Below, in pieces: positions 1-11,742 of a stretch of 22,514 nt of DNA (the first letter of the stretch is position 1; every line of letters begins with the position of its first letter). Both the position numbers and the translations under genes were made by a program. The notes under the pieces were generated by a model. It had not been told where the DNA came from and ran no database searches. It saw only the letters and a program-made list of their open reading frames with translations. Source of the DNA: a virus; the IMG/VR virus record IMGVR_UViG_3300027132_000059, positions 1-22,514 of that record; one strand, given 5' to 3'.

Positions 1-291
1 ATCTACCACAGATATCTTATTGAGTGTTGGTAGCTTTCTTTCTGCCGCGTAACTCATTCGTGTCATCTCAAACGCCATTCTTGGCAGCTGAATAGCAAAA
101 GGTTTGTTTAGATTAGGATCCTGCTGTATTCTAACTAGGAACTTTTCCTTTGGACCATAAGATATAGGTACCTTATAGTTCCTGATAATCTCTCCATTAC
201 TAGTCTTCTGAACATATATGTCATTGAATACTGTTCCAAATAAAATGACATATTTTCTTATAGTATCGTGAAAAAAGGTTTGATTAAACAT
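1..291 (-). CDS. gp15: Tail sheath stabilizer / tail terminator gp15 (3' end outside the window)
   Basis: The first 97 codons of a gene run off the left edge of the window. The ATG at 291-289 overlaps the gp14 stop as TAATG. The translation begins MFNQTFFHDTIRKYVILFGT and continues through FNDIYVQ, VPISYGPKEKFLVRIQQDP and AIQLPRMAFEM. These match the conserved N-terminal signature of T4-like gp15: RKY, FGT-FNDI, VPISYGPKEKF and LPRM. In T4, gp15 (272 residues) caps the finished tail tube and sheath and joins tail to neck. Following gp13 and gp14 directly is the T4 order, which supports the call. The C-terminal two thirds cannot be seen. Confidence 0.88.
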   Translation of the reverse strand, partial: MFNQTFFHDTIRKYVILFGTVFNDIYVQKTSNGEIIRNYKVPISYGPKEKFLVRIQQDPNLNKPFAIQLPRMAFEMTRMSYAAERKLPTLNKISVVD

Positions 292-1013
292 TAATATACG
301 CCCTCACTAAACGGATCAATTTCAGTGAAGTCAAGTATAGCATCACCCTCTGACTGGAATTCAACATTATCGGACACAGGATCAATTTCTTCAAGATAGA
401 AGTCATCTAAAATCATTTCGAATCCATCTTCAGTGAGCATGAACTTACCATCTTCAGTTAGGATATTGTAATCAGACAAGTCTGTTGACAGGCTAGTGTA
501 TATGTTATCAATAAAGTCAAGTCCGGTATTGAACTGCTCGTTACTGAATTCAAATAACTCGCAAACTAAATCATATGTCTGTAAAGATCCTAATTGATAG
601 AATATAGCTTCATGTTCAACAAACTTGATCTCAAAGAATTTATTATTAAGTGGTAAGAATATTATATCACCCTCTAATGGTCGATCACGACCGGAAAAAG
701 CACCAACATCTTCCCCAAAGGTTTTTCTAGCCATTGTAAGGGTAACCTGATCTCGTATCTCAAGATTAAACTTAGAAAGAAAGTCTCCCTGTCCTTGGAA
801 CCCTTCTACATTCTTGATATACAGATCGGTAAGATGGAAAGAATTGAATTGAGCATAGCTATCCTCACCAAGTATTTCATCAATGTTAACACTTGTTCTT
901 GGTAGGTAATAACTATCATGGCCGTAGATTTTAATAGACTCTACAACTAGACTCTCAATGAGCTGTTGCTCCCCACTAGCAGCAAAATTGTTGAAATAGA
1001 AGTTTGTAGCCAT
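291..1013 (-). CDS. gp14: Neck protein gp14
   Basis: 240 residues, close to the 256 of T4 gp14, a neck protein that with gp13 joins the DNA-filled head to the tail. Family signatures are visible: EQQLIESLVVESIKIYG (15-31), YYLPR (35-39), LYIKNVEGFQGQGDFLSKF (64-82), IRDQVTLTMAR (86-96), RPLEGDIIFLPLN (111-123) and FEIKFVEHEAIFYQLG (127-142). The ATG lies 1 base beyond the gp13 stop (TAGCATG) with no clear Shine-Dalgarno sequence, so translational coupling to gp13 is likely. The stop overlaps the gp15 start. The C-terminal region is strongly acidic and holds a tandem LTEDG motif (185-189 and 193-197), probably an exposed surface segment. The identification is secure from motifs plus gene order. 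Confidence 0.9.
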   Translation of the reverse strand: MATNFYFNNFAASGEQQLIESLVVESIKIYGHDSYYLPRTSVNIDEILGEDSYAQFNSFHLTDLYIKNVEGFQGQGDFLSKFNLEIRDQVTLTMARKTFGEDVGAFSGRDRPLEGDIIFLPLNNKFFEIKFVEHEAIFYQLGSLQTYDLVCELFEFSNEQFNTGLDFIDNIYTSLSTDLSDYNILTEDGKFMLTEDGFEMILDDFYLEEIDPVSDNVEFQSEGDAILDFTEIDPFSEGVY

Positions 1014-1014
1014 G

Positions 1015-1755
1015 CTAGCCGATCATATCCGTTACTGGGAGCGAGTAAGATGACATCATTTCCTTCTCAAGTGCTTCTATCTCAGCATTTGCGTCATTAT
1101 AGATCTTATCTCCATTAAAAGAAACTCCACCTGGAAGTTGAAGCCCACTAAATTTTGAAAGATTGCTACCCCACTGTCTTTTAATTAGTGCAGTAGTATA
1201 CATACCTAACCATCTATCACCCCATGCATCTGTATAAACGTCTGGATCAAGAACTTGGTAAGCCTCAACAATTAAATAATTACCAACGTTGACTTTATTC
1301 CAATCCATGTCAACACTCAGCCTATTTGTATGACGGTTGTATCTGATTGGCTGCATACCCACCAATAACTGTTCCATCAGCTGAACGTGCTGGAACATCA
1401 TGTAGTATGGGATCATTGAAACGGAAGTGAGGGAATACAGATCATTTAACGCAATTTGATATCTAATATCAAACAGGTTATTAGTAACCATGGGGTCACC
1501 AATGTTGAAAATACGCACAGCCCCAATTATGTTTTCTGGGAGTATTATATACTTGTCTGATACATTACTTGCTGTGATTACGTGCTTATAGTATATTTTT
1601 TCTGTACCATCAAAATGGTAATCCCAATAGTAGCTTAATGCTTCGTCAATACGATCTTCTACTTGATCATCATCTACGTTAATTTCAATAACAGGTTTAC
1701 CCAGCTTACGCAGGCAATATTCTTTGAATTCTGATCTTGAGACTGGACGGGCCAT
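1015..1755 (-). CDS. gp13: Neck protein gp13
   Basis: 246 residues. The N-terminal signature SEFKEYCLRKLGKPVIEINV, the following DDDQVEDRIDEALSYYWDYHFDG, the middle RHTNRLSVDMDW and the C-terminal ALIKRQWGSNL / LPGGVSFNG / LPVTDMIG are those of the T4-like gp13 neck protein. In T4, gp13 (309 residues) works with gp14 at the head-tail junction, so this is a shorter form. A strong Shine-Dalgarno TAAAGGAG (1763-1770) sits 7 bases before the ATG. Just upstream, at 1780-1787, is a CATAAATA sequence resembling the T4 late promoter. This is the first gene after the longest genuine gap in the region (43 bases), so it probably heads its own transcript with gp14 and gp15. Confidence 0.9.
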   Translation of the reverse strand: MARPVSRSEFKEYCLRKLGKPVIEINVDDDQVEDRIDEALSYYWDYHFDGTEKIYYKHVITASNVSDKYIILPENIIGAVRIFNIGDPMVTNNLFDIRYQIALNDLYSLTSVSMIPYYMMFQHVQLMEQLLVGMQPIRYNRHTNRLSVDMDWNKVNVGNYLIVEAYQVLDPDVYTDAWGDRWLGMYTTALIKRQWGSNLSKFSGLQLPGGVSFNGDKIYNDANAEIEALEKEMMSSYSLPVTDMIG

Positions 1756-1779: not shown

Positions 1780-1787
1780 TATTTATG
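1780..1787 (-). promoter_or_regulatory. Candidate T4-type late promoter before gp13
   Basis: On the minus strand this reads CATAAATA, 7 of 8 bases of the T4 late-promoter -10 element TATAAATA. It lies in the 43-base gap between the oxygenase-like gene and gp13. Transcription would start roughly 6-8 bases downstream and leave a short leader containing the gp13 ribosome binding site. The position is right for a late promoter, but the element is short and the window is AT-rich, so chance cannot be excluded. Confidence 0.45.
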
Positions 1788-1798
1788 TTGCAGTTATT

Positions 1799-2329
1799 TT
1801 ATAGAAAACAATCTGCCGCTTCTTGGAAGGGGATACTCAAATACATCTGAATAAGGTATCTCTCTCTAGTACGGGCCGGGTCTTCAAGTACGGCGTGCGG
1901 TTGCCTTGAATTTAAAAGCCAGATATCATTATCACCAGCAACAAAGCTCTCTACTGGAGTCAATTTAGACTCATTGACCTGATAATATCCATTATCATCA
2001 TTGAATTCCGAAGGTATTCTTTCTTGCTCCCCCTCATAGAATACTGTCTCTTTACCATTAGTTTTATAATAAAAGTTAATAACACACTGCTCTATAGTAT
2101 GAACATGAGCTGATAAATCAGATATTACAGATTTAGTAACACCTAGACAGTTCTCTCTTATTTTTTGAGGAAATGGTGATAGGATTAAATTTACATCTTT
2201 TTTAGGTAGATAATATCTCACAAGAGCATACCCGTATGACCTTTTTGCATGCTTCTCTATTAGTCTTGTTCTATTATCAAACCCCGCAGATGAGTCAAGA
2301 TGTATGTTTAGTTTCTTTGCGTATTTCAT
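1799..2329 (-). CDS. Probable divergent Fe(II)/2-oxoglutarate (aspartyl/asparaginyl hydroxylase-like) oxygenase
   Basis: 176 residues when started at the ATG at 2329, 1 base after the TAA of the upstream oxygenase. A GTG at 2350 would add seven residues and overlap that gene, but the ATG start, MKYAKKLNIHLD, looks more natural. Neither start has a Shine-Dalgarno, so reinitiation from the upstream gene is likely. Features consistent with a cupin-fold dioxygenase are AHVHTIEQCVINFYY (74-88), an ETVFYEG strand (94-100), DIWLLNSRQPHAVL (135-148, candidate distal His145) and RERYLIQMYLSIPF (155-168, Arg for 2-oxoglutarate). A canonical HxD triad is not obvious: the first site reads HVH (75-77). 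The fold is therefore inferred and the activity is open. It could equally be a non-catalytic cupin. It sits last in an oxygenase cluster, before gp13. Confidence 0.55.
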   Translation of the reverse strand: MKYAKKLNIHLDSSAGFDNRTRLIEKHAKRSYGYALVRYYLPKKDVNLILSPFPQKIRENCLGVTKSVISDLSAHVHTIEQCVINFYYKTNGKETVFYEGEQERIPSEFNDDNGYYQVNESKLTPVESFVAGDNDIWLLNSRQPHAVLEDPARTRERYLIQMYLSIPFQEAADCFL

Positions 2330-2330
2330 T

Positions 2331-2933
2331 TTATTTAAAAGGTGGTCCACCTACCCAAAGTACAGCTGATCTTCTTATTCCTTTTGTAACAGGAGCCACT
2401 CTATGAAGTACATATGAAGGAAAAAACCAGGCTCTTCCTTTTACCAAATCTAATGTCTTTACTTCATCGCTTCCAATTTTGACCTGGAATTCACCACCCT
2501 CAAACTCACTTGGATCAGATAGTAAAAGAGCCATTGATAATTTTCTTGGTACCTTCATATCAAATGGTGATGCATCTGTGTGCCAGTCGTAATGACCTTT
2601 CTGATCACCAGAATAATAACTAAGCTGCATTGGTTCATGAAAACCGGATAGATCAAAATTAAAGAATCTTCTATTGACCTCTGTAACTGTTGCTGAAATT
2701 TTATCCCATATATAATGTATTTCAGGTTTAACACCAACCCAAGAAACATCGGAAACTCTAACTTTACTACTTACTTGAGCCTCTTCGGAATCACTTCCAA
2801 TAGTCGCCTCGTGTTTACTGTGCCACTCTGGAAGTGCTAATAAAGTGTTTATATCTTCATTAGATAAAAACCCATCCCAATATGCCATGTCATCTCGTCC
2901 ATATTGGTTTCTTGCATACATTGGATACAACAT
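2331..2933 (-). CDS. 2-oxoglutarate/Fe(II)-dependent oxygenase (PKHD-type hydroxylase)
   Basis: 200 residues. Members of this family use Fe(II), O2 and 2-oxoglutarate to hydroxylate proteins or small molecules. The iron triad is complete: His118 and Asp120 in YDWHTDA and His177 in VLHRV. Arg187/Arg188 in KGIRRSAVLW would bind 2-oxoglutarate. The core RKLSMALLLSDPSEFEGGEF (130-149) and GRAWFFPS (167-174) is typical of PKHD-type hydroxylases. The ATG at 2933 is preferred over the TTG one codon upstream, because GAGG at 2939-2942 then lies 5 bases away. The gene follows another oxygenase by 7 bases and runs into the next gene with one base between stop and start. Related enzymes are common in marine T4-like phages. 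The substrate is unknown, and virion proteins or host proteins are both possible. Confidence 0.88.
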   Translation of the reverse strand: MLYPMYARNQYGRDDMAYWDGFLSNEDINTLLALPEWHSKHEATIGSDSEEAQVSSKVRVSDVSWVGVKPEIHYIWDKISATVTEVNRRFFNFDLSGFHEPMQLSYYSGDQKGHYDWHTDASPFDMKVPRKLSMALLLSDPSEFEGGEFQVKIGSDEVKTLDLVKGRAWFFPSYVLHRVAPVTKGIRRSAVLWVGGPPFK

Positions 2934-2940
2934 CAAGTCC

Positions 2941-3528
2941 TCACTTTTCTTCCATTAATTTAGTTCGATTATATTTGTAGCTATATGGTCTCTCGCTTAC
3001 TGGATCACCAACCTGTGATGCATGCTGTCCATTCTTCTTTACAAAGTGAACAAAAACTTGACCAGAGTAGTATCCTTCTGGACCATTACAAACATCACGC
3101 CAGTGCTCTATATCACATCCCTTGTAGATGACAGCATCACCTTCCGCCATATCATATCGCTTCCCACCCATATATATTGGCCATGAATAATGATGTGATC
3201 TTCCAAGCTGAATGGTAGCACTTACCTCACAAGCAGGACGATCAGTATGTTTTTCTAATGTGTCACCATTGTGATATAGTCTTGAATAGGAATATGTCGG
3301 CATCAAGGGCTCCCCTAATGCACTTTCAATCATAGGCCACACTGCTTCTTGCAGTGTTTCAAACATAATCTCATGATGCATCACTGTTAGTGATGATGGT
3401 ACTTGTTGATCAGATACTGGATCTAGGTCAGCTTTTCTTAGTAATACGTGTGTGAAAAAATAACAAAGATGCTGTGACAACAGCCTTGGAACATATATTG
3501 CTCCAAACTTTTCAAATTGTTCATTCAT
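2941..3528 (-). CDS. 2-oxoglutarate/Fe(II)-dependent oxygenase
   Basis: 195 residues. His94 and Asp96 in LEKHTDRPACEVSATIQLG form an HxD motif, and His142 in DIEHWRD is the distal iron ligand. The strand and turn pattern between them, YSWPIYMGGKRYDMAEGDAV, followed by GYYSGQVFVHFV (152-163), is that of a double-stranded beta-helix dioxygenase. This is a family often met in marine phages. Its sequence differs clearly from that of the neighbouring PKHD-type enzyme, so the two are not recent duplicates. The ATG lies 1 base beyond the upstream stop (TAATATG) and no Shine-Dalgarno is seen, which suggests translational coupling. The substrate is unknown. The gene context (fibres upstream, neck genes downstream) is compatible with modification of virion proteins, but this is inference. 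Confidence 0.82.
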   Translation of the reverse strand: MNEQFEKFGAIYVPRLLSQHLCYFFTHVLLRKADLDPVSDQQVPSSLTVMHHEIMFETLQEAVWPMIESALGEPLMPTYSYSRLYHNGDTLEKHTDRPACEVSATIQLGRSHHYSWPIYMGGKRYDMAEGDAVIYKGCDIEHWRDVCNGPEGYYSGQVFVHFVKKNGQHASQVGDPVSERPYSYKYNRTKLMEEK

Positions 3529-3529
3529 A

Positions 3530-4051
3530 TTATTTTACATAAACTCCGTAAGTGTCTCTAAGAGCACGAACCTTCTTATTCCCGGTTGTAAATTTAAGTC
3601 TATTTACGTTAGTGTAATTCTTATCAGCAATATTAACAGCACCCTCCATCATGAAGATCCTCTTACCCATCAATACGGTAACCTCTTCACCTGCTTTCAG
3701 TTTGAAAGGTTCAAATCTATCATGTAGTGGTAGATAGTCAACATTTAAGTAGGGACTGAAGCAAAACATCTCGGAATGGTGGTCAATAATTATCTCATAT
3801 CTTCCATCAGGGATATTTACATCATACATGGTCTTACATGCAAAAGACCCTTCAGGAATGATTATCTCCTCACCTGTTTCAGTATTTCTCAATATCTGAG
3901 AGCTCTTGGTCTGCACAGTACAGTATCCATGATCTTCTTTATGAATATTAGTTATGTTATTAATTACTGGATCGGAGTTTATAATGTCTCCTGGATATAC
4001 TTTGGTTTGAACGCATATGTATTCAAAAGCCCCATGTCTTATCATTTCCAT
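3530..4051 (-). CDS. Unrecognised protein, predicted beta-rich (cupin-like?)
   Basis: 173 residues, family not recognised. Short alternating hydrophobic strands and turns dominate: YICVQTKVYPGDII near the start, EEIIIPEGSFACKTMYDV in the middle, then GRYEIIIDHH, and FKLKAGEEVTVLMGKRIFMM later. This gives an all-beta appearance that could be a cupin or jelly-roll, though no metal-binding His/Glu set is clear. DHHSEMF contains adjacent histidines. The start has an upstream GGAG (in CGGAGATATAAC), and the ATG follows the previous stop as TAACATG. The gene sits between a conserved small protein and the oxygenase cluster, with which it is probably co-translated. It may assist the oxygenases or fibres, but there is no direct evidence. 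Confidence 0.7.
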   Translation of the reverse strand: MEMIRHGAFEYICVQTKVYPGDIINSDPVINNITNIHKEDHGYCTVQTKSSQILRNTETGEEIIIPEGSFACKTMYDVNIPDGRYEIIIDHHSEMFCFSPYLNVDYLPLHDRFEPFKLKAGEEVTVLMGKRIFMMEGAVNIADKNYTNVNRLKFTTGNKKVRALRDTYGVYVK

Positions 4052-4052
4052 G

Positions 4053-4391
4053 TTATATCTCCGTTACAGGTTCCATATCTACAGGACCCAAGCTATCAAA
4101 GGTATACTCGAAAGTATTTCCAACTAATGATCTCAATGCTAGCTTCTTAACTGGATCTGCCTGAAGTATTTCTCTTCTTTTTTGCTGCTCAGCCACGTAC
4201 AATCCGGATTGAGCAATACGTTGTTTGATATCCTCAATGTCATTGACATCCGGCCACATATTGGCAGGTTGATATGCATACCCCTGATAATTATCGGGAT
4301 CTTGAGACAGGTTATCACTAGAAGCAAAAGAGACAATTAGTGAATCTGTTTGATCTTCGTATGATAATACTTTCATTTTTAGCGTTTTCAT
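4053..4391 (-). CDS. Conserved small protein downstream of the adhesin; possible fibre assembly factor
   Basis: 112 residues, beginning MKTLKMKVLSYEDQTDSLIV. I recognise this kind of small protein from marine T4-like phages but know no function for it. The N-terminal third looks like beta strands. Residues about 30-65 carry aromatic and Pro/Asp-rich sequence (YQGYAYQPANMWPDV), followed by a helix (DIEDIKQRIAQSGLYVAEQQKRREIL), and the C-terminus is acidic. A good AAAAGGA ribosome site precedes the ATG, which lies 11 bases after the adhesin stop. In many phages the gene immediately after a receptor-binding tip encodes its chaperone, so that role is a reasonable guess from position only. Confidence 0.75.
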   Translation of the reverse strand: MKTLKMKVLSYEDQTDSLIVSFASSDNLSQDPDNYQGYAYQPANMWPDVNDIEDIKQRIAQSGLYVAEQQKRREILQADPVKKLALRSLVGNTFEYTFDSLGPVDMEPVTEI

Positions 4392-4402
4392 TACTTTTCC
4401 TT

Positions 4403-5560
4403 TTAGCTTACAGCACCAATTCTTGTTCCGTTATTTGCCCATGTTACGAATGGGTTACCTGTTATGTATGGTCCAACAGCTCCAGCAGCACCACCACCGT
4501 TTGGAAAGTTACCTCCAGTACCCGGGGTACCTGCATTACCAGCAAGACCTTGGTTTCCACCAGCACCACCGTTACCACCAACATATCCACTAGCTGAAGC
4601 ACCAGCACCACCTGGACCACCATTAACAAAACCACCAGCTGTTCCAGCTGTACCTGTTGCAGGAGTAAAGGGAGATACACCGGCAGTACCACCAGCACCA
4701 CCAACTAATCCTGGCGTAGCTCCTGGACCACCGCCTCCACCTCCTCCGCCACCACCCTCAGCACCACCGGATAAATCATCATAACCAGTTACTGGGGTAG
4801 ATCCACTGACTGTATTTTTACCCTGTGTAAAAGTGAAAGGAATAGAGAAAGGTGGTGTACGGGCATAGTTGATTGATCCACCACCACCGCCTCCACCACC
4901 ACCTCCACCTATCAATGTCCCTTGGTTATCTATTGTGACAGGTCTTTGAGCAAGAACAGCAGCTCCACCAGCAGATCCTGCCGTAGCAGCACCACCTACC
5001 CACCCACCAATTGGATATCTTCCAGGTGCACTAGTTGATCCACCGGGACCACCAGCACCACCCTTACCGTAAATAGTTCCAAGATTATGAATAGTAATTG
5101 TATCTCCAGGAGCAAACTGACTTGGTATCAATAGGCCGGCAGACGCTGTGGTTGAAGCTGTCAGTACAACACCAGCCTCAATAGTAACATCAATATCAGA
5201 ACCACCTGGTGCATATATTGGAGTTCTGTTATCATAAAGATTGTAATCAACCGCATTAGCAGATACAGTTATTGAATACGGTATTCTATTCTGAGTACCT
5301 AAGAAGTCGTTATATGAAATCTGTGCTGCTGGTGTATCTGGTGCAGGCGGTGATATGTTATTTGGTATTGTTTGTGTAGCCGGAGTATTTCTAACGATAA
5401 CCGCAGGAGTGTTATTACCTCCACCAACAGGGTTAGGAACAACAGGAGTGTTTGAAGGACTCCTGTAATATTCACTTAGTGATATGGGACCACTACCACC
5501 AAACTCTCCTTGTATGGTGTTAGCATTAATTGTTGTTCCCGATGGTCCTGGAATTGGCAT
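4403..5560 (-). CDS. Glycine-rich tail adhesin / fibre-tip protein
   Basis: 385 residues in three parts. The N-terminal segment (1-33), with TTINANTIQGEFGGSGPISLSEYYR, resembles the conserved attachment segment of many marine phage tail proteins. A Pro-rich linker follows (11 prolines between residues 35 and 77), then a beta region (80-215). The C-terminal half is glycine-dominated with two pure glycine runs (218-228 and 269-278). It ends FVTWANNGTRIGAVS. Long glycine-rich tracts with GGxGGxxG spacing recall the polyglycine-II helix bundle of T4-superfamily gp38-type adhesins such as that of Salmonella phage S16. Such a domain would display variable receptor-binding loops at a fibre tip. The ATG has GGAG upstream, and a GATAAATA element lies in the 36-base gap before it. 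The host receptor is unknown. Confidence 0.72.
   Translation of the reverse strand: MPIPGPSGTTINANTIQGEFGGSGPISLSEYYRSPSNTPVVPNPVGGGNNTPAVIVRNTPATQTIPNNISPPAPDTPAAQISYNDFLGTQNRIPYSITVSANAVDYNLYDNRTPIYAPGGSDIDVTIEAGVVLTASTTASAGLLIPSQFAPGDTITIHNLGTIYGKGGAGGPGGSTSAPGRYPIGGWVGGAATAGSAGGAAVLAQRPVTIDNQGTLIGGGGGGGGGGGSINYARTPPFSIPFTFTQGKNTVSGSTPVTGYDDLSGGAEGGGGGGGGGGPGATPGLVGGAGGTAGVSPFTPATGTAGTAGGFVNGGPGGAGASASGYVGGNGGAGGNQGLAGNAGTPGTGGNFPNGGGAAGAVGPYITGNPFVTWANNGTRIGAVS
4727..4756 (-). repeat. Ten-codon glycine run in the adhesin
   Basis: Residues 269-278 are all glycine, encoded by mixed GGN codons. It is one of two such runs. It lies in the tract predicted to pack as polyglycine helices and is a potential site of slippage. 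Confidence 0.85.
4877..4909 (-). repeat. Eleven-codon glycine run in the adhesin
   Basis: Residues 218-228 are all glycine (mostly GGT and GGA, some GGC), directly after NQGTLIG. The N-x-G-x-(I/L)-x-G(n) pattern is common in phage fibre proteins. Simple-triplet character makes length change by slippage or recombination plausible. Confidence 0.85.
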
Positions 5561-5586: not shown

Positions 5587-5594
5587 TATTTATC
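5587..5594 (-). promoter_or_regulatory. Candidate T4-type late promoter before the adhesin
   Basis: GATAAATA on the minus strand matches 7 of 8 bases of TATAAATA. It lies in the 36-base gap before the adhesin ATG at 5560, leaving about 26 bases for a leader with GGAG. The evidence is sequence match and position only. Confidence 0.32.
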
Positions 5595-8912: not shown

Positions 8913-9878
8913 CTATACCCAGTTACCAACAGAAATATCCGCTGCAGCGTATGGTCCAATTGGATAGAATTGCATATATGATCCACCAAGTGTAATGTAG
9001 GTACCACCAGGAGCTGCAGAGAGCTGATATTGTGGAATAAATGTTCCTCCTGCGTTAATTGCCACAGTTCCCTTAATTAGAATATTCATGTAGATTGTAT
9101 TTGTAATACCTGTAAATAAAGCTTGCGCTCCTGCTGTTGTTACAGTAAAGTCAGCTATATTACCAACTGCAGCAGGAGTTGTGTTGCTATTTGTTGGACT
9201 AGAAGTGGTTTTTACATTATACATAATATTATGTACCGATGCAGTTCCACCAAATAAAAGTGAGAAGCTATGAGAACTGGTACCAGCAGTTCTTGCTATA
9301 CCATATACCATCTCAAAAGCATAAACCGTATTACTTGATACCGTCAATCCCTTACTTGACTTGATCTCTCTAGACCCGACAGTCTGAGATATACTTACAG
9401 TATATGTACCAGATCCACCAGTACCTGTTCCTAATGCTGTAATAATTGTATTTGCTGTGATACCAGTACCATACACCTGCTGACCAACAGCAAAGCCGTT
9501 AGCAACAGTACCACCAACTGTTAGCGTTGTACCGGCAATATTAGATGTTGTTCCTGATCCACCAGTAATAAACCCAATACCCATTGCTGCAACGTTAGCG
9601 CCAGAGCTATTAGCATTGAGTCTATAATATTCCATTGTAGGTAGAACTCCACGCTCGTTCAATAGCGGAGTTCCATAAAAAGCTGTGCCATCATACTCTA
9701 ACGCACCATTAGCTACGGTTGAAAAAGAAGTACAAGCAAGTATAGCTTTTTGAGATGATGATAGTGTGAGTGCTGTGGTACCTGCCCCACCACCTGTTTT
9801 CAATTCCAATATACCAGAACCATCTCCAACCATACCAAAATTATTTGTATCATTACCTGCTGTAATTACTGTTGACAT
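8913..9878 (-). CDS. Virion structural protein with inserted beta domain
   Basis: 321 residues. The N-terminal part has ALEYDGTAFYGTPLLNERGV then EYYRLNA. The C-terminal part has IKGTVAINAGGTFIPQYQLS and SYMQFYPIG. These are the same architecture as the 255-residue paralogue downstream. Residues about 103-176 have no counterpart in that paralogue. They hold TTLTVGGTV, GQQVYGTGITANTIITALG and GTGTGGSGTYTVSISQTVGS, a small beta domain often seen as a mobile insert in marine phage fibre proteins. AAGGGCG precedes the ATG by 5 bases and overlaps the upstream stop region. It is likely a tail-fibre or tip-associated subunit, and no enzyme motif is seen. Confidence 0.74.
   Translation of the reverse strand: MSTVITAGNDTNNFGMVGDGSGILELKTGGGAGTTALTLSSSQKAILACTSFSTVANGALEYDGTAFYGTPLLNERGVLPTMEYYRLNANSSGANVAAMGIGFITGGSGTTSNIAGTTLTVGGTVANGFAVGQQVYGTGITANTIITALGTGTGGSGTYTVSISQTVGSREIKSSKGLTVSSNTVYAFEMVYGIARTAGTSSHSFSLLFGGTASVHNIMYNVKTTSSPTNSNTTPAAVGNIADFTVTTAGAQALFTGITNTIYMNILIKGTVAINAGGTFIPQYQLSAAPGGTYITLGGSYMQFYPIGPYAAADISVGNWV
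9351..9572 (-). repeat. Inserted beta-domain cassette in the 321-residue protein
   Basis: Codons for residues about 103-176, absent from the adjacent paralogue. The tell-tale sequence is VGQQVYGTGI followed by a GTGTGG linker and TYTVSISQTV. The alignment joins FGVGVTLSSSTVYAFE in the paralogue directly across this stretch, which defines the insert. Confidence 0.65.
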
Positions 9879-9894
9879 TTTTCGCCCTTAAATA

Positions 9895-11742
9895 TTATAG
9901 TATAACCAAACGTGAATTATTTGCAACACTAACACCTACTCCGTTAGCAAAACTTACTGGACCAATTATCATTGCGTTATTTCCAGTAGTTACATTTACA
10001 TTACTTGTTATGGTAGTGGATGAGAAGTATACGGGTCCACTACCTGAACCTCCCGATACAGTACTCCAATAAGGAGCACCTGTAGCACCATTGGAAGCAA
10101 GTACTTGACCAGCTGTTCCAGTAGTCCCGTTTGCTGAAAGAGGCACATTATTTAATGTTACCTGAGTGCTATTAGCAATAAAAGATGTACCGGATGAAAT
10201 AGTTGCAGAGTTTACACTTGTAGTAGCGTTTACAACAGCTGCTAGGAAGCCATTTGCTTGTAAGTTTGCAATCCTGAATGTTGCGTTTGATGTGTCAATG
10301 AAAGCAGATTCATCTGGTTCAGGATCGTAATTATCGAATACTTTATATACACCATCAGTTGCATCTCTGAAGAAACCAGTGTGGTGATATGTACCATCAT
10401 TATAACCAGCCGCAAAACCAATATCTGGATTTGCATCTGTTGTACCCCTTGCAGTACCACCTGATGTATATGTATCAGTGTTTGTATTAGCAACAATAAA
10501 ATGTGTTGCATTTGCTTGGGTTATGTTGTGATATGTTCCGTTGAACGACGAAGGTGTTACACCAGTTACAGTTACGTCCCAGTTATTAGCATAGTTATTA
10601 TTAGCAACAAACACAACAGCTGTACCGTTACCAGTAGCGCCAGTGATATTAGCAAGAACACCGTTATTCATGAATATCATGTGGTCAGTAACTGCAAGTG
10701 TCCTGGCAGATACTGTAAATGTATTTCCCGAAACTGTTAAGTTACCTCCAATAGTGACAGCACCACTGAAGTCCCCAGTATTTGCAAATAAATTCCATCT
10801 ATTAGATAATGATCCTAAAGAGTAAGTATTAGACGCTGGGGTGATTGACGTCGCATTAGCTATAAATGCTGTTGTTGTAAAGGAAGTGGCGTTGATACTA
10901 TTAGCCAATATTGTAGTTACAACTACTGATGTTGAGTTCACAACAGAGTTGACTGTTGAATTACCAACACTGATATTAGTTGTGCTAATATTAATATTAG
11001 CTCCAACATTGATTGCTGTTGTTATATTAGCAGTTGAAGGTAATCTAGCTGTGTCTAGTGTGCCTGATGTAATATTATTGGCATTCGATGAATATAATCT
11101 CAAATCAGCTGCACTATTACCACCGACGTATGAAGCATTATTTACACTCAACGCACTAGCATATATTGCATCTACGAACAAACCAGAAGAGTTAGCAATC
11201 AGACCCGTATTTGCATTGACAGATATTGTACCTGTCGATGTTATTGGACCACCGGTTAAACCGTTACCAGTATCAACTTGTGTTACAGTACCATTTCCAC
11301 CACCACCAGCCCAGTAAGGAGCTCCAGTTGATCCGTTAGATATAAGAAATTGACCAGCTGTTCCTGTTGATCCATTTGCTGTCAATGGGGTGGTAACAAC
11401 TAGAGCTGTTGTATTAACAATGAATGATGTACCGACAGTTAAAAGAGCACTGTTAACAGATGTTGATATATTAGCGTAACCAGTTCCAATAATAGCTGTA
11501 CTATTAGCAATAAAATTAGATCCAACAGTATGGCTAGCAGCGTTAGCAGTATTAGAAACATTTTGATTAGTGAGATTAGCACCGACTTCAAACTGAACGG
11601 TTCCGTTAGACGAAAACATCTTACCATCGGTAAGATTGAGCGCTAGCTCACCAGTATCAATGTATTGGGTATTTGCAGGATCGGAGGTATTAGGCGTACG
11701 ACCGGATACAGTCGTACGTTTGACTTGAAATAAATTAGCCAT
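9895..11742 (-). CDS. Tail-fibre protein (615 residues)
   Basis: The N-terminus MANLFQVKRT...DTGELALNLTDGKMF is the docking segment seen in many phage fibres, also present in the 557-residue fibre here. The shaft is rich in Asn, Ser, Thr and Val, with repeated NST/ANST units. A 22-residue element ending SNGSTGAPYW occurs at 123-144 and again at 538-559. Residues 307-480 form a module shared with the 557-residue fibre (LGSLSNRWN...GNLTVSGN...DIGFAAGYNDG...HTGFFRDATDGVYKVFDNY), here interrupted by an insert of about 77 residues. AAGGGG lies upstream of the ATG. Likely a trimeric side or tail fibre; no self-cleavage domain is present at its end. The receptor is unknown. Confidence 0.8.
   Translation of the reverse strand: MANLFQVKRTTVSGRTPNTSDPANTQYIDTGELALNLTDGKMFSSNGTVQFEVGANLTNQNVSNTANAASHTVGSNFIANSTAIIGTGYANISTSVNSALLTVGTSFIVNTTALVVTTPLTANGSTGTAGQFLISNGSTGAPYWAGGGGNGTVTQVDTGNGLTGGPITSTGTISVNANTGLIANSSGLFVDAIYASALSVNNASYVGGNSAADLRLYSSNANNITSGTLDTARLPSTANITTAINVGANINISTTNISVGNSTVNSVVNSTSVVVTTILANSINATSFTTTAFIANATSITPASNTYSLGSLSNRWNLFANTGDFSGAVTIGGNLTVSGNTFTVSARTLAVTDHMIFMNNGVLANITGATGNGTAVVFVANNNYANNWDVTVTGVTPSSFNGTYHNITQANATHFIVANTNTDTYTSGGTARGTTDANPDIGFAAGYNDGTYHHTGFFRDATDGVYKVFDNYDPEPDESAFIDTSNATFRIANLQANGFLAAVVNATTSVNSATISSGTSFIANSTQVTLNNVPLSANGTTGTAGQVLASNGATGAPYWSTVSGGSGSGPVYFSSTTITSNVNVTTGNNAMIIGPVSFANGVGVSVANNSRLVIL

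Follow-up and report, generated by a model that had tools for sequence, protein, structure and literature searches.

Why does a T4-like phage carry three oxygenase genes in a row beside its adhesin, and on what would their products act? The question arises from a 22,514-base IMG/VR fragment, analysed at full length and called the window here. Its minus strand encodes, in order, fibre genes, a LamG-type gene, an adhesin, two conserved proteins that we call h112 and h173, the oxygenase-fold proteins OxA, OxB and OxC, and homologues of gp13, gp14 and gp15. An earlier reading of the letters alone had placed three oxygenase-fold genes at 1799-3528 between the adhesin and the neck genes, and had given two adjacent ones complete but different triads. 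Both statements held: the open reading frames are OxA (2941..3528), OxB (2331..2933) and OxC (1799..2329), all on the minus strand, with H94-x-D96...H142 in OxA and H119-x-D121...H178...R188 in OxB, invariant in relatives. The likely true starts of OxB and OxC are the ATG codons at 2933 and 2329, respectively, a longer OxC from a GTG at 2350 being possible. Since active-site residues are conserved in all three families, the motifs are not chance occurrences.

OxA falls into phrog_2954 (4e-40), a family named 'ferrochelatase'. It matched no Pfam family at E<=1, and its sequence returned from the PDB only weak matches to thymidylate synthase, which we rejected as chance. The AlphaFold model (pLDDT 95) is a double-stranded beta-helix of the oxygenase type, with Z scores of 14-16 against oxygenases, including 15.3 for the P. 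putida prolyl 4-hydroxylase (P4H) 4j25 and 14.9 for PHD2; SnoN was also near, and Foldseek returned the P. putida P4H as the closest structure. H94, D96 and H142 were invariant in 31 of 31 viral relatives, down to about 30% identity, and the triad was kept in all ten sequences when OxA was aligned with nine cultured-phage homologues (27-37% identical to it). R144, two residues past H142, is likewise invariant; no 2-oxoglutarate (2OG)-type Arg or Lys was seen at the usual spacing of about ten residues. By its HxD...H triad and modelled double-stranded beta-helix, OxA is a predicted member of the 2OG-Fe(II) superfamily. When ten phage 'ferrochelatases' were compared with the ferrochelatase model, none matched at E<=10. 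Given this absence of a ferrochelatase match and the conserved oxygenase triad and fold, the name of phrog_2954 is unsupported, and the family is one of HxD...H oxygenase-fold proteins. OxA is thus a member of the phage 'ferrochelatase' group PHROG 2954/3531 (T4-GC615), whose name the models do not bear out.

That name matters for the proposal that such genes serve auxiliary metabolism, through 2OG drawdown, DNA repair or the use of haem and iron. Cyanophage papers propose 2OG/NtcA signalling and DNA repair (PMC3037559), and pairs of a 'ferrochelatase' and a 2OG oxygenase have been read as iron or haem partners (PMC9599517, PMC11561400). Against this stand the ten phage proteins that fail to match a ferrochelatase, the nine aligned ones all bearing the oxygenase motif, and the fold of the window's OxA; moreover, several distinct active sites argue against mere consumption of 2OG. 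We consider a metabolic role of this kind very improbable. Other members of PHROG 2954/3531 are misnamed in the same way (for example L053:6836-7426 and L054:6740-7510), and published seasonal and iron readings use the name. PHROG 274 'DNA endonuclease V' and PHROG 1644 'minor coat protein' were also returned as names for proteins that match 2OG-oxygenase Pfam models, and are probably further mis-named oxygenase families.

OxB is of the PKHD/prolyl-4-hydroxylase type. It matched PF13640 at 2e-13 (51 bits, cut-off 27), and its H119, D121, H178 and R188 were invariant in 25 relatives; profile matches included a PiuC-type PKHD hydroxylase (1e-15) and a chlorovirus prolyl 4-hydroxylase (2e-11). 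Triad, 2OG-binding Arg and family profile thus assign OxB by sequence to the 2OG-Fe(II) superfamily. It is probably a prolyl hydroxylase, and the association with proline described below is a lead to that activity, not proof of it. With PiuC and the bacterial and viral prolyl 4-hydroxylases (9qn1, 4j25, 5c5t) OxB shares the full HxD...H...R pattern and OxA the fold; unlike in those systems, OxA is only about 8-16% identical to these proteins and the genes adjoin a phage adhesin. A natural fusion of an OxA-family domain to a PF13640 domain in S-SCSM1 (L057:9001-10362) mirrors the OxA-OxB gene pair.

OxC, to which the sequence-only reading had ascribed a divergent His/Arg pattern on a related fold, has a confidently modelled double-stranded beta-helix of the oxygenase type (pLDDT 86). 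Among many near-equal structural matches were 6n1f (Z 11.9), YcfD (Z 11.2) and AspH 5apa (Z 10.1), and the Foldseek matches include cupins. The likeness to AspH is one of fold Z score, no sequence match to AspH being found, and a search of the OxC sequence against the PDB gave no oxygenase, its best matches being spurious. The window's protein had no match in cultured phages, Pfam or PHROGs. From viral contigs we collected 91 related sequences in 88 loci; among 38 members compared with profiles, none matched Pfam and one matched a PHROG weakly. On these comparisons OxC is an undescribed viral family. In cultured phages, two Roseobacter phages carry relatives of an HxD-type OxC query. A pattern search of bacterial genomes gave 18 matches, none of which was confirmed by tblastn, and it therefore provided no clue to the host.

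The divergent pattern proved to be a conserved exchange of Asp for His. In the motif H82-x-H84...H152...R164, the residues H82, H152 and R164, together with N92, Y94 and T102, were invariant in 91 of 91 sequences, whereas position 84 holds Asp in 66 of them and His in the other 25, which are the window's clade. The HxH proteins form one group (support 100/99) and adjoin six HxD proteins, four of which also lie beside an adhesin. OxC of the HxH type is best read, from this tree and alignment, as having arisen when a predicted metal ligand changed once from Asp to His, a state strictly retained ever since. The window's OxC has the beta-helix and the 2OG-type Arg of the superfamily, and H84 in place of the HxD/E carboxylate ligand. 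Like the 3-His iron dioxygenases (cysteine dioxygenase and cupins), the clade has three His residues at its predicted metal site; unlike them, it keeps an invariant 2OG-type Arg and groups with HxD relatives.

Is such a protein still an enzyme? The same Asp-to-His change in human P4H, D414H, yields an inactive enzyme (PMC2767507), and HxH is confined to one clade, as might be expected if OxC were a metal-binding scaffold, a pseudo-enzyme that brings the adhesin to the other two proteins, OxA and OxB. The invariance of the six residues through deep divergence and the clade-wide retention of H84, as in a working metal site, speak for a functional centre instead, and cysteine dioxygenase works with a 3-His iron site. 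The scaffold idea, which concerns OxC of the HxH type only and is compatible with the explanation that we favour for the whole locus, is doubtful but a real possibility. In three loci (L073, L075 and L076) an HxH and an HxD paralogue of OxC stand three genes apart next to one and the same adhesin, which would allow the two kinds of site to be compared within a single locus. Elsewhere, HxD-type OxC adjoins radical SAM and carbamoyltransferase genes, or lies between thymidylate synthase and primase. At L086:6199-6750, and at the similar loci L087-L099 and L120-L125, it stands beside radical SAM genes and a NolO-like carbamoyltransferase (annotated in L086), in what is apparently a modification island unrelated to the adhesin.

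Which neighbours do these genes keep? The adhesin (4403..5560, minus strand) is a gp38-like, Gly-rich tail-fibre protein by PF05268, phrog_2056, composition and column analysis, and is the proposed substrate. Right after it on the same strand come h112 (4053..4391), a small protein conserved in synteny with no Pfam match, which may be an assembly partner, and h173 (3530..4051), likewise conserved in synteny, which matched no family in the Pfam or PHROG profiles. Gene order was compared at 47 OxA loci. The recurring order was adhesin, h112, h173 or a replacement, OxC, then OxA and OxB, with extra oxygenases interspersed; the contigs differed in their flanks, the gene order and the set of oxygenases varied, and the adhesins were about 36-52% identical.

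Beyond the cassette, the window carries neck proteins resembling gp13 (1015..1755, minus strand; phrog_211, 9e-41) and gp14 (291..1013, minus strand; PF11649, 4e-32). A gp13 gene lies downstream of the cassette in the window's close relatives only. We rejected coupling to the neck genes as incidental, since most relatives carry the cassette without gp13. The conserved partner of the cassette is the adhesin and not the neck genes. The earlier proposal that the oxygenases are coupled to virion genes, rather than to metabolic or DNA-modification genes, consequently survives for the adhesin, where the coupling recurs widely, and fails for the neck genes. Oxygenases lying away from fibre genes and linked to metabolism, which that proposal had taken to count against it, occur only among distant homologues, and the cassette stays with the adhesin.

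We also approached the linkage from h112, using the 77 dereplicated copies of its gene for which four or more genes could be seen downstream, drawn from the best 80 matches per search. An adhesin lay upstream of h112 in 74 of the 77 and an oxygenase within eight genes in 68, counts that are biased by queries built mostly from oxygenase-bearing loci. A query with the adhesin itself had a low yield in viral contigs, where Gly patterns saturate. In other phages, 24 OxA loci lack this adhesin family; 13 of them encode another Gly-rich protein no more than six genes away, and these include loci of five cultured phages (P-RSM4, S-CAM8, S-MbCM6, Mosig and HTVC033P). Gly-rich genes were more frequent near these OxA genes than far from them (17/262 versus 1/160, Fisher p 0.002), a proximity that in part reflects that both are tail-region genes. 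In Pelagibacter phage Mosig (L054) the fibre genes are succeeded by an oxygenase-type gene array, then by haem oxygenase and PcyA, and finally by neck genes; its annotated haem oxygenase and phycocyanobilin:ferredoxin oxidoreductase, in a SAR11 phage, occupy 9831-11067 between the array and the neck genes. A gene resembling fatty-acid desaturases (acyl-CoA desaturase 4zyo, E 4e-11; no Pfam match) lies in or beside the cassette at L013:7279-8001 and also in L010-L015 and L153.

The same linkage could arise if the variable fibre region simply gathered mobile oxygenase genes that act elsewhere, so that adhesin and oxygenases shared nothing but their transfer. The variable gene order and oxygenase sets are what such hitch-hiking would produce, and distant homologues do reside in replication modules, as the OxA homologues of S-CAM22 and P-SSM7 do. 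Transfer alone, however, hardly accounts for an order of adhesin, h112, h173 and oxygenases that recurs across adhesins only about 36-52% identical, nor for the comparable association that other phages show with Gly-rich proteins of a different kind, and we judge this account distinctly unlikely. In a second explanation the enzymes would alter glycans or lipids of the host surface, or a small molecule, for instance to block superinfection, the adhesin being near because both belong to a host-recognition island. Such islands of pelagimyophages carry glycosyltransferases (PMC7029224), a NolO-like carbamoyltransferase neighbours OxA in P-RSM4 and S-CAM8 and, together with radical SAM genes, OxC of the HxD type, and the desaturase-like gene is inserted in the L010-L015 cassette. 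Yet we identified neither a sugar gene nor a glycosyltransferase within the unit from adhesin to OxC, the tie is to adhesin and h112 in varied surroundings, and surface remodelling leaves the association with proline unexplained. It too seems unlikely.

From adhesin through OxC the genes are spaced by 1-11 nt, and the gaps on either side of the block measure 36 and 43 nt. Both of these flanking gaps hold ATAAATA, a T4-late-promoter-like motif, on the minus strand: one copy (5587..5593) lies 26 nt before the adhesin ATG and the other (1780..1786) between OxC and gp13, bounding the unit. The motif also precedes gp13 in L001, L003 and L008. Its total in the 22,514-base stretch was not above chance, and hence position alone makes it suggestive; as a general feature of the cassette it was rejected, not being general across the loci compared. 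By its spacing and flanking motifs, the window's cassette is probably transcribed as one unit, and its timing would be late.

If the adhesin is the substrate, its composition might bear a trace of the enzymes. The protein has 385 residues, 25% of them Gly and 9.6% Pro, and matches PF05268 (gp38) at 27.5 bits against a curated cut-off of 25, over residues 96-227 alone. The sequence-only reading had counted 11 prolines between residues 35 and 77, which is exact, and had offered this linker and the many Asn residues of the fibres as targets of a fibre-hydroxylation cassette. Neither target stood up. The Pro-rich linker is missing from the adhesins of L009, L010, L012, L016 and L021, which keep their oxygenases, and adhesin Asn is not enriched beside OxA or OxB, the tendency being slightly in the opposite direction. 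The broader idea of a hydroxylation cassette gains indirect support from proline content, and the Gly-rich tip domain, with its conserved P114, P146, P151, P207 and P370, appears from these comparisons to be a better substrate candidate than the linker.

Median Pro in the adhesin core was 7.6% with OxA or OxB and 2.3% without them (p 6e-5); in oxygenase-free relatives the adhesin domain is nearly proline-free (about 1% versus 7.5%). Pro ranked first of the 20 residues at separating the groups, and the difference persisted after regression on GC and locus Pro (p 0.003). In a larger set, all 49 OxB-linked adhesins had at least 4.8% Pro and OxB was absent from all 14 below 4.8%, a cut seen in the data rather than preset. 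The sites of P114, P146, P151 and P207 held Pro in 39-45 of 47 adhesins with OxA or OxB and in none of eight oxygenase-free ones. The oxygenase-free, Pro-poor adhesins form one clade in the h112 tree, and other proteins of their loci are also somewhat poorer in Pro. Supported independent contrasts number two or three; on average they agree, with essentially none in the opposite direction, and they are too few for significance. One locus (L230) keeps OxA beside an adhesin with 0.5% Pro; hence prolyl hydroxylation of the adhesin does not by itself describe OxA. Two loci (L203 and L166) have a high-Pro adhesin with neither OxA nor OxB.

From the folds, motifs and synteny that we observed, and from the association with Gly-rich adhesins and their proline content, we infer the timing, substrate, residue, chemistry and benefit of the cassette. 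Our preferred explanation, held tentatively at a little short of an even chance, is a conserved adhesin-modification cassette, expressed late, whose oxygenases have the adhesin as their target; prolyl hydroxylation is the probable reaction of OxB. It would consist of a Gly-rich gp38-type adhesin, h112 and h173, followed by between two and five oxygenases of the 2OG-Fe(II) type, which would act on the adhesin, or on partner fibre proteins, during virion assembly. OxB would most likely hydroxylate prolines of the Gly-rich tip, such as P146, P151 and P207, and the hydroxylation could change tip stability or receptor binding; OxA would probably act on a different residue in these proteins. The 3-His protein OxC might perform a related but altered iron chemistry or serve as a substrate-binding partner. 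A stronger combined version is in our view unlikely to hold as a whole: dedicated co-transcribed oxygenases would hydroxylate tip prolines, much as collagen is matured, and OxC would be a naturally occurring 2OG-type oxygenase with a 3-His site, derived by the single Asp-to-His change.

The window adhesin resembles the gp38 adhesins of T2-type phages (S16 and PP01) in its PF05268 match and Gly-rich composition. Tips of that type are polyglycine-II sandwiches. T4-like cyanophages carry 1-24 2OG oxygenases (24 in S-SCSM1), read as serving 2OG/NtcA signalling, DNA repair or host metabolism. These cyanophage and pelagiphage arrays belong to the same superfamily and show the same pairing with OxA; the portions available give an auxiliary metabolic reading and do not describe the adhesin linkage, the proline association or the OxC family. 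A 2026 annotation paper reports prolyl-hydroxylase-like folds in PHROG 61. According to a 2012 study, neither bacteria nor viruses possess prolyl hydroxylases that serve collagen-like fibres, a statement that the arrangement of adhesin and oxygenases may contradict. In the open-access literature we found no proposal of adhesin hydroxylation. No oxygenase cassette is known from T2-type phages, and it speaks against the preferred explanation that, as far as is known, the gp38 tips of E. coli phages work without such enzymes.

In conclusion, recurrence of the cassette in dozens of diverse phages suggests, from their gene content, that certain phages alter the chemistry of the tip with which they bind the host. 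Correction of the 'ferrochelatase' label touches the published iron and haem stories that rest on it, and OxC gives enzymologists a naturally occurring protein in which to ask if 2OG chemistry is possible at a 3-His site. Phage genes for 2OG oxygenases abound among aquatic viruses, lack an explanation and are routinely labelled auxiliary metabolic genes. If they are tied to receptor-binding tips, many would shift from host metabolism to virion maturation, with possible consequences for host range and for the stability of the tip.
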